The notes under the pieces: generated by a model
Told to the model about the DNA's origin: nothing
The model's database searches: none
The model's input: only the letters and a program-made list of their open reading frames with translations
Shown here: piece by piece, positions 42,802-45,428 of the stretch
Layout: each line of letters begins with the position of its first letter
Numbering within the stretch: position 1 is the stretch's first letter
Position numbers and translations under genes: made by a program
Source of the DNA: Photorhabdus noenieputensis
Lineage (GTDB): Bacteria > Pseudomonadota > Gammaproteobacteria > Enterobacterales > Enterobacteriaceae
Assembly: GCF_018448935.1 (NCBI RefSeq)
Contig: NZ_RCWC01000011.1
Location: forward strand, 1-64,000
Direction: 5' to 3'
Length of the DNA stretch: 64,000 bases

Positions 42802-42924
42802 GTGAATAATAAAGAAAGGTCTAAATTAATACGCTTACCTAAACAAGTAAGAGAAGATGAAGATATTAAGATTGAATCTTCAAGACTTGGCATCATTTTT
42901 ATAATTAATGCAGGTAGCAAATGA
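42802..42924 (+). CDS. 40-residue peptide, possible secreted/RiPP precursor
   Basis: Small gene starting with GTG at 42802, 6 nt after a strong AGGAG (42791-42795). The charged N-terminal part (KERSKLIRLPKQVREDEDIK) is followed by a hydrophobic end [15 protein letters not shown]. Its TGA stop overlaps the ATG of the downstream ABC gene (ATGA), so translation is almost certainly coupled. No Cys is present and no family was recognised. A leader-plus-core layout next to a dedicated exporter would fit a ribosomally made peptide, but no modifying enzyme is visible; a regulatory leader peptide is the main alternative. Confidence 0.6.
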   Translation: MNNKERSKLIRLPKQVREDEDIKIESSRLGIIFIINAGSK

Positions 42925-45428
42925 GCATTTCTGCAATTAAGAATAATTTAACAAAGCAATATAGCACCTTAATTATATTTCCCGTTGAGGTAATAGTTAA
43001 TTTATTATCTTCTTTTTTTTTATTTTTCATATTGATTTACATAATAACACTTCCTTTAACTAGTGGTTTAGATACGAGTAGTGTTGGCTTTATTATTTTC
43101 TTAATTGTAATATTAAGACCCATCTTGAGTGTGATTAATAATCTAAGTCTATTTTTCATCACTAAAAAGCAGGCTTATATTCTCTCAACATTTAGTAGTT
43201 GTTTCACTAATAAAAAAGATGCCCAGCAGAATGAGCATGATATTGTAAATTATTCCACCTATGATGTTAGTGTGGTTTTGATGATATCTAAGGTAATCTG
43301 TTTCATTTATCTCTCTGTTCTAATGGTCATTAATGTTGAAGGGGGAACAGTTGGCTTACTGTCTTTGTGTTCTATATTGATACCATTATCATTTTTTCTA
43401 TTTAAAAAGCGAGCTTATCTCTCTAAGCAATTAGCAAAGATAAGAAAATGGAGATATAAATTTATTGGAGATAATTTCGAAGCTCTGACTACTATATTGT
43501 TAACTAGATACCAGGGAGGGAAACTTTTAAGTTTTAATAGAATTATTAATATTGAAGAAAAAGTAAAACGTATTGATTCATTGTGGAGAGCTGTAGATAT
43601 TTCCTCAAATGCATTTTTAAAAATTATTCCTGTTTTGTTTCTCATTTTGATTGGTAAGGAAATATATAATAGTGATAAACTACTTATTCTTTTATATTCT
43701 CTAATTTTGGTTAGTGAATATCTTGGTTTAGTTAGATTACTAACGCCATTTTATGATGGTTATCTGGCTAAATTGTCAATTATTAGGAGATGTAAAAATT
43801 ATCGATACAAACCAGAAGAGTATTATGATTTAGATGGAGAGCAGGGTTTTATTGAGAAAACTATTCTGGGAAATATATATTTATCAAAAGATCTAATCAA
43901 TAGAAGCATATTAAATAAATTAAGTTATGAAATTTTTCAGATTGATAAATATATTGATATGAGTTCAAACATTAGCGATCTATCAAGGGGACAATTGAAT
44001 CTTATTTTTGCTGTAAGAAATGTATATATGGCTATAATTGATAATTATAGAGGCCATATTTATTTTGATGTTAATAGAGCTGGTTGGGATTCTAACTTAT
44101 TATTTGATTTGGAAAGTATAATTTCAAAAATAAAGGCAGAGTATGAAATTGATATTATATTATCATTTTCGCATAAATTTAATAATATTGAATTGGAAAC
44201 AAAAAATAAACCTATAAAATCGACGTCAGATAATGGCGTTATACTAGGTGAAAGTTATAAGATTAATAAATCAAAAATTTCTCAGTTTCTATATGTTTTT
44301 AGTTATAACTCTGTAATTGGAACTTTACTATTATTCATTGCTAGTCTTTCGTTATTCGAGTTGGGAAGAGTGACATACAATGAATATGATAGTGAGATTT
44401 ATAAGATAATATCTATATCTCTATTAGGTATGATTTCATTGATTGTAGGATCATATTTAATAGAGCTTAAGATAAGAAAAAGAGCAAGACAAGACGTATA
44501 TAGTTCCATTAAAAGTAACTTTAGAGTGGAAGGTTTCAACTTATTTAAGCATGAATACAATGTAATAATAAATAAATTTACCATGTATGCCAAGGATATT
44601 TTCTGGTTTGGTTCGATATTTGTCGGGACTGTACTTTTATTTCTTAATTCTGAAAATTTTATGATTGTGTTTGGTACCATGCTTATATTTCTTACTAGTA
44701 TTTATTTATTGTATCCTCTGTACAAGGATAATAGAAATAAACACTATAAAGAGCTCCATGCTTTATCAATTCATTTTTCTTATATTAAAAAACTACCTCA
44801 ATGTGGTCCAGCTAATCGTTTTTGTCGTGACACTATTTTATTTGGAATACGTAGTTTATATACCGTAGCATCAAAACGATATTTAATTAATTCTTTGGCT
44901 TCTATATTAGGTCTTATAATATCGAGTTTGATAATTTTTTATTCTTTATATCCCAGTTTTGAATCAGATAACATTACCGCTGCTATAAACTTAGATAATA
45001 GAATCGTCATTTTTTATTTCGCTATATTTGGATATTTGTCAGAAATTGTATCTATTAAAAGGATCACTGAACACAACAATATTTATTATAAAGAAAGAGA
45101 TTTATTTTCTAAATTATCAATTTTAGAGCAAAGTTTGGAAAAAGATAGAGTTATACAATTAGTAGGAAATAATGGAAGTGGTAAGACTTTTTTTCTTAAG
45201 AAATTATCTGAAATAAAAGGATACATATATATAGACCATAATTTTGATCCCTATTTAGCAAACGATAGATTTTTAGATTATCTCAATAAATCTGATTCAG
45301 AGGTGATTATATTTGATGAGTTTGATTGCAGGAAATTAATAAATAGAATTGATAAAAATAAGAAAATAATCGTTGTCTCACATATGGAAACTATTGGTTC
45401 AATATTGAACATTAGCGAAGTGGTATGA
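42921..45428 (+). CDS. Fused ABC transporter with two complementary partial ATPase domains
   Basis: An 835-residue membrane protein built as TMD-NBD-TMD-NBD. The first membrane half (about residues 15-275) precedes an NBD fragment with signature LSRGQ (354-358), a Walker-B-like [13 protein letters not shown] (379-391, catalytic Glu replaced) and H-loop His418, but no Walker A. The second membrane half (about 455-712) precedes an NBD fragment with Walker A GNNGSGKT (749-756), Walker B VIIFDEFD (795-802) and H-loop VVSHM (817-822), but no signature: only about 40 residues separate Walker A from Walker B where over 100 is usual. Together the halves could form one composite ATP site. DNA is strongly AT-rich and the gene interrupts the conserved yaaA-talB region, so it is probably acquired. 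It overlaps the 40-residue peptide gene by 4 nt, pointing to peptide export; the substrate is unknown. Confidence 0.75.

Follow-up and report, generated by a model that had tools for sequence, protein, structure and literature searches.

The window, by which we mean the whole 64,000-nucleotide stretch of Photorhabdus noenieputensis DNA analysed here, encodes an ABC-type protein of 835 residues (42921-45428, plus strand, open across 835 codons) whose two nucleotide-binding domains (NBDs) are cut down to complementary fragments. The first fragment keeps the signature without a Walker A, and the second keeps Walker A and Walker B without a signature. The explanation that we prefer, and to which as a whole we would give an even chance, is that this is a single-chain transporter with one composite ATP site, which came from a five-gene peptide cluster and has been kept in this lineage as an orphan, most likely for protection.

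The gene has yaaA on one side (41801-42643, minus strand) and talB on the other (ORF 45445-46515, plus strand, with an alternative 322-aa reading from 45547). These names, like thrABC and mog, are presumed from sequence and gene order. The strong AT bias remarked on in an earlier reading of the sequence is real: the GC content is 0.32 over 42001-46000, compared with 0.41-0.47 over 34001-42000 and 0.43 over 46001-48000.

Split motifs in the two NBD fragments

Four intact copies of the protein were available, from the window, from genomes G301 (85% identical to the window protein) and G300 (79%), and from the MAG Fux382_bin38 of Enterobacteriaceae (63%). A motif scan covered these four and, from one broken copy, the longer of its open pieces. 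Each of the five sequences has exactly one [AG]xxxxGK[ST], one [LIVFM]SxG[QE] and one hhhhDE, and neither a second Walker A nor a second signature was found anywhere in the chain. The order is constant in all five, with LSRGQ ahead of the second membrane half and GxNGSGKT and VIIFDE behind it. The complementary halves described in the sequence-only reading are thus borne out by the scan in every sequence.

The NBD1 fragment covers residues 304-424 (43830-44192, plus strand) and has no Walker A. It contains Q308, the signature LSRGQ (residues 354-358; 43980-43994; identical in all five sequences), a Walker-B-like Asp without the Glu that leads into a D-loop-like GWD (D383-D390; 44067-44090), and H418. 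G388, W389, D390 and H418 are invariant in the four intact copies, and D383 is replaced by Asn in the MAG copy. The NBD2 fragment covers residues 718-835 (45072-45425, plus strand), and the ORF translation and motif scan place in it the Walker A GNNGSGKT (residues 749-756; 45165-45188) and the Walker B VIIFDE (residues 795-800; 45303-45320), followed by the H-loop His821 (45381-45383). It lacks a Q-loop, a helical subdomain and a signature. Q308, Glu800 and His821 are each invariant in all four intact copies. Neither NBD therefore has the complete cassette of Walker A, Q-loop, signature, Walker B, D-loop and H-loop in order, while Walker A, signature and Walker B with its Glu do occur together in one chain, as expected of the ABC superfamily.

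In an ABC dimer, one NBD contributes Walker A, the Walker B Glu and the H-loop to a site, and its partner contributes signature and D-loop. NBD2 holds the first of these sets, and NBD1 holds the second in the form of its signature and D-loop-like GWD. A single ATP site composed from both halves would be the natural reading of this arrangement, and the presence of the GWD on the expected side goes beyond what the sequence-only reading had seen. There is one misfit: the sole Q-loop-like Gln, Q308, sits in NBD1.

In a different assembly, the two fragments would fold together into a single NBD, and ordinary ATP sites, two in number, would form when two chains pair. In its favor, the elements absent from NBD2 (Q-loop, helical subdomain and signature) are those found in NBD1, and Q308 is invariant. 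On the other hand, NBD1 keeps its own GWD and H418 at near-canonical spacing, which such a fold would not need, and two membrane halves already seem to be present in each chain, albeit in a low-confidence model, so that a pair would have four. We regard this assembly as unlikely, if deserving of attention.

Comparison with exporter NBDs of the same genome

The genome of the window has 16 PF00664 matches, 13 of them with both motifs readable, and these served as reference exporters. The significance of hhalign scores was assessed with 100 column shuffles per segment. Residues 308-367 resemble, in order, the exporter stretch from Q-loop to signature (score 31.3 vs 22.2 for the best shuffle; 0/100), residues 718-772 resemble the Walker A stretch (65.0 vs 20.5; 0/100), and residues 791-823 resemble the stretch from Walker B to H-loop (40.8 vs 18.4; 0/100). 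Together with the motif scan, these scores uphold the earlier description of a first NBD with LSRGQ and no Walker A, and of a second with Walker A, Walker B with its Glu and an H-loop but neither signature nor helical subdomain.

The same description gave the first NBD a Walker-B-like strand and an H-loop, and this stands only in part. The NBD1 tail (residues 368-440) finds no support from the profile, with a score of 7.2 that is reached by 97 of 100 shuffles; we make the assignment because of spacing and invariance. The distance from L354 to D383 is 29 residues, whereas the 12 measured exporters have 24; D390 follows D383 by 7 residues, the same as in DEATSALD, and D383 to H418 is 35 residues vs 32-33 in exporters. 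After the signature, the protein has Ile at position +8, a place taken by Ile, Val or Leu in the exporters, and Arg at +12, as do 12/12 exporters. Walker A and signature lie 102-108 residues apart in the 12 measurable of the 13 exporters. Here, no signature follows Walker A, and Walker B Asp comes 50 residues after it.

Membrane halves and family assignment

Six long helices are predicted in each of two membrane halves, TMD1 (residues 3-292; 42927-43796, plus strand) and TMD2 (residues 453-718; 44277-45074, plus strand), giving a putative TMD-NBD-TMD-NBD order. The prediction comes from a full-length model of low confidence (pLDDT 34.8), with which the hydropathy peaks agree partly, and the same model gives no support for packing of the NBD halves. 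The Pfam membrane domain PF00664 has no match in the window protein up to E = 10. Against 12 exporter TMDs, hhalign gives TMD1 a score of 19.9, near noise (shuffle maximum 19.1; 0/25 shuffles), and the score of TMD2 is at noise level, being reached by 4 of 25 shuffles.

Modeled in isolation, NBD2 forms a minimal P-loop core, with block-mean pLDDT values of 61-83 over most of residues 740-819 and a value of 50 at residues 750-759, the P-loop. A fold search with this model returned generic P-loop proteins (AAA+, STAND and thymidine kinase). No ABC protein was among the matches listed (50 in each of two lists), and there was no Foldseek match at E <= 0.001. Sequence profiles lean more toward the ABC superfamily. 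Pfam ABC_tran (PF00005) matches NBD2 weakly, with E = 0.0034 in the window protein and 0.00065 in the MAG copy; the scores of 18.4 and 20.8 bits are below the cut-off of 25, and 30-34 of 137 positions are matched. Pfam nSTAND3 (E = 0.0018) is level with or slightly better than ABC_tran in the window protein, and ABC_tran leads in the MAG copy. ABC ATPases account for 11 of the 12 families in weak NCBIfam matches of the window protein and for 10 of 15 in those of the MAG copy, for 3/3 and 8/12 of weak PDB-sequence matches (counted by name), and for one of six Pfam families weakly matched by the window protein. Because these sequence and fold matches are mixed, our confidence in calling the 835-aa protein ABC-type is good, though short of full.

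Some ABC proteins, of which CFTR and SUR are models, work as channels or receptors. The present protein could likewise be an ATP-sensing membrane protein, switched by one ATP-binding event, rather than a transporter. Its TMDs match no transporter family and its ATPase core is minimal, without a Q-loop in cis, as such a protein might have. Glu800 and His821, however, are hydrolysis residues in ABC proteins and do not vary among the intact copies, and a position within a biosynthetic cluster fits export. We consider a sensor of this kind quite improbable.

Peptide-MBL clusters elsewhere

In G300 (L020 7119-13554) and in the MAG (L002 3196-9487), the ABC gene is the third in a row of five; before it come the genes of a 37-aa peptide and of a metallo-beta-lactamase-fold (MBL-fold) protein, and after it those of a kinase-like protein and HpaB. 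In both clusters found, then, it has a candidate precursor and a candidate modifying enzyme as neighbors. The G300 peptide is MSDKEKVKLVRLLKQVKGKKGSKSQTSKSDAIAAYHY, the MAG version ends in AIASYHY, and both therefore end in YHY. An inverted repeat, GCAACCTA...TAGGTTGC, lies between peptide and MBL genes. The MBL-fold ORFs are 480 and 488 aa long and 80% identical over the compared part.

Gene families in the MAG were assigned by Pfam for the MBL, by a weak shikimate-kinase match (E = 2.6e-6) for the kinase-like protein, and by TIGR02310 for HpaB (889.2 bits, above the cut-off of 885.2); those in G300 were assigned by similarity to the MAG proteins. The MAG row is flanked, as judged by eye, by integrase-like and primase-like genes. 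In G300, the kinase-like gene is interrupted by a repeat of 127 bp. This repeat is dispersed, with copies at L020 6656-6782 and 11334-11460 and further ones in L019, L022 and L023.

Further apparent ribosomal-peptide clusters, in which a small peptide with a Y-H-Y/H/R end lies just upstream of an MBL-fold protein, are at L015 11755-14351, L016 11763-14368, L017 11768-14354 and L045 2779-5354. Four full-length plasmid relatives of the MBL, from Streptomyces and Kitasatospora, are 31-34% identical to it (a fifth, broken match, H5, was excluded from this count), and all four are preceded by a peptide of 41-50 aa that ends in TYHR, SYHH, TYHH or TYHH. Upstream of the plasmid MBLs is a divergent regulator gene, annotated as XRE, HTH or transcriptional regulator. 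Downstream is a protein of 289-298 aa; two of the four were scanned, and neither matched a Pfam family at E <= 0.01. The incomplete gene tables of the plasmid stretches seen list no ABC gene. The nearest PDB matches of the MBL profile include NAPE-PLD, SaxA and the diiron hydroxylase CmlA.

The obvious reading of these clusters is that their product would be a ribosomally made peptide whose C-terminal Y-H-x is modified. They point to an unexplored peptide family, in which C-terminal Tyr and His occur beside an HpaB-type phenol hydroxylase in two cases; the HpaB neighbor would suit a metal-binding catechol peptide. The sequence-only reading had suggested a peptide exporter, and this role is plausible because of the intact clusters elsewhere, with their 37-aa YHY peptide and MBL, and not because of the ORF that overlaps the gene in the window.

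Relics of the cluster in the window

That ORF (42802-42924, plus strand) exists, as the earlier reading had noted, and overlaps the start of the ABC gene. Rather than an overlapping peptide gene, we take it to be a deletion relic, in which codons of a precursor leader are fused to remains of the 3' end of an MBL gene. Roughly the first 15 codons are similar to the leader of the 37-aa peptides. The tail of the corresponding relics in G301 and G298 matches the MBL 3' end at the DNA level (0/2000 shuffles each, against both MBL genes) and, by our reading of the alignment, out of the MBL reading frame. The relic in the window aligns to the same junction but is shorter, with scores reached by 977 and 47 of 2000 shuffles; its tail alone is not significant because more has been lost. 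MBL matches are absent from the genomes of the window, G301, G298, G299 and G233.

The 40-aa ORF has a Shine-Dalgarno-like sequence, an ATGA overlap with the ABC gene and its leader-like beginning, and one could propose that it is itself the exported peptide and the partner of the ABC protein. Its C-terminal YHY has gone, however, and its tail aligns with MBL-derived DNA in another frame. The start codon varies, being GTG in the window and TTG in G301, and the start region is lost in G298. Between the window and G301, dN is 0.18-0.21 and dS 0.21-0.22 (rough values from about 30-40 codons), so that dN is close to dS and the ORF appears to drift, in contrast to the ABC gene, which is constrained (dN 0.07, dS 0.31 for the same pair). 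We hold it very improbable that this ORF supplies the exported peptide.

The kinase-like gene has left traces too. In G301, a relic of 31 bases follows the ABC gene (0 and 1 of 1000 shuffles). The window has a possible relic of 16 bases that includes the ABC stop codon (45426-45441, plus strand), and this is marginal: its score of 27 compares with 26 for the best of 1000 shuffles against the G300 kinase, and its score against the MAG kinase is reached by 288 of 1000. Of the cluster, the ABC gene alone is intact at the locus in the window, and the precursor and modifying enzyme are relics or absent.

An MFS-type protein of 403 aa is encoded upstream of the relic ORF in four sister genomes (L019 10421-11632, L021 7375-8586, L022 6061-7272 and L023 5770-6981; Pfam run on the L019 copy) and is absent from the window.

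Conservation and selection

The split layout is kept in the four intact copies and in the piece of a fifth, down to 63% identity, and no relatives with full NBDs were among those found. Over 10 pairs from five sequences, pairwise dN/dS is 0.16-0.24 for the whole gene, 0.13-0.34 for NBD1 and 0.14-0.26 for NBD2, so that each part of the gene stays clearly under 1. For the window protein, the value is 0.24 against G301 (bootstrap 0.19-0.31) and 0.18 against G300 (0.14-0.23). The possibility raised in the sequence-only reading, that this copy is merely decayed, does not fit with these results. The split looks like a conserved design rather than simple decay.

A related view, that an exporter gene is disintegrating along with its lost cluster, deserves separate consideration. 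Six copies are present at the talB locus of the genus: two are intact (window and G301), that of G298 is split by a frameshift, and three are fragmentary (G299, G233 near a contig start, and a second copy in G300); 6 of the 12 genus genomes have no match. Of the six copies, four are thus broken or mostly deleted, and the neighboring genes are relics, which is what disintegration would give. Three of the four broken copies, those of G298, G299 and G233, are in genomes without another copy and without an MBL match, and therefore the orphan is dispensable there. Moreover, the broken G298 copy, at 0.23 against the window, is as low in dN/dS as the intact copies; the value therefore reflects constraint over most of the divergence and not the present state of a copy.

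Against disintegration stand the 835 open codons of the window gene and the occurrence of the same split in the G300 cluster and in the MAG copy, at 63% identity. The dN/dS of 0.24 between window and G301, which have a deletion junction in common, also argues against it. This junction is shared by the window, G301 and G298, and so, barring recombination, constraint on the ABC gene acted after the loss of the MBL gene. We judge it improbable that the gene is in the course of decay.

Proposed mechanism

In the transporter that we prefer, a single chain would run from TMD1 through the NBD1 fragment and TMD2 to the NBD2 fragment. NBD1 would have shed its Walker A core and kept the helical subdomain with LSRGQ and the D-loop for its partner, while NBD2 would have shed the helical subdomain and signature and kept Walker A, Walker B with Glu800, and His821. 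On closing of the halves, one ATP would be held between the NBD2 Walker A and the NBD1 signature and be hydrolysed in that position. Asymmetric exporters have a second, degenerate site, and of this nothing would be left.

The ancestral role may have been export of the product of the five-gene cluster, along with protection from it. In the lineage of the window, the other cluster genes would have been deleted, leaving the ABC gene an orphan; purifying selection would maintain it, most likely since efflux guards against relatives that still make that compound or a similar one. Because the orphan stays constrained, self-protection is perhaps its role, and it is the one we prefer.

Relation to known transporters

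In the heterodimeric exporters TM287/288, BmrCD and TAP, which have a degenerate site, both NBDs are present as whole domains. Our proposal resembles them in having one hydrolytic site formed by both halves and no turnover at the other. Unlike theirs, the second site here has neither Walker A nor signature, and the fragments are of about 120 residues each. The hallmark of asymmetric exporters, a consensus and a degenerate site on two folded NBDs that both bind nucleotide, is not what we see. Sections of PMC5216877 describe the degenerate site of heterodimeric exporters as still binding nucleotide, and the purpose of the second site as debated.

Since asymmetric exporters with one degenerate site are already well known, having one working site is not new. 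What we have not seen described is the loss of Walker A and signature from the other site, with both NBDs cut to complementary pieces. We found no description of truncated or Walker A-less NBDs, or of a YHY-peptide cluster, in the open-access full-text literature, which is weak evidence of absence. Our fuller claim is of a natural ABC transporter in which the labor of ATP hydrolysis is split, one truncated NBD giving trans elements only and the other cis elements only, with the second site removed by evolution rather than weakened. It would be devoted to transporting ribosomal peptides of a class so far undescribed, with a C-terminal Y-H-Y/H/R and an MBL-fold enzyme, in Photorhabdus-like bacteria; on Streptomyces and Kitasatospora plasmids, the class would occur without the ABC protein. 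We put the chance of all this a little short of even. If a conserved protein truly has its second site deleted, it offers a direct way to ask whether one ATP per cycle suffices.

McjD of microcin J25 is a RiPP exporter that also gives self-immunity, and McjD-type proteins are half-transporters with full NBDs. The present protein is like them in that it is an ABC protein whose gene shares a row with those of a short peptide and a putative modification enzyme (L020 and L002), and unlike them in its single chain, its split NBDs and the lack of a Pfam TMD match. Sections of PMC10598978 report enterocin immunity genes of the ABC-transporter kind, in which the ABC gene protects, and treat bacteriocin-resistant non-producers with 'orphan immunity genes' as a known theme. 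Those enterocin genes are Gram-positive and encode different proteins, and a split NBD goes unmentioned in these sections (PMC10598978).

Other features of the window and its genome

Near the talB locus, an IetA/IetS-type anti-phage gene pair, an AAA+ ATPase with an S8 protease, lies at 48340-51716, with NCBIfam scores below the curated cut-offs. Another ABC ATPase (27088-27834; E = 9e-22) sits in a low-GC patch. At 4777-21425, an ORF of 4965 aa adjoins a ShlB/FhaC-type transporter and looks like a two-partner secretion exoprotein with its transporter, a reading taken from the ShlB/FhaC side. In keeping with Photorhabdus, as is the gene order, the genome of the window also has luxC followed by a luxD-like ORF, the latter recognized by eye.
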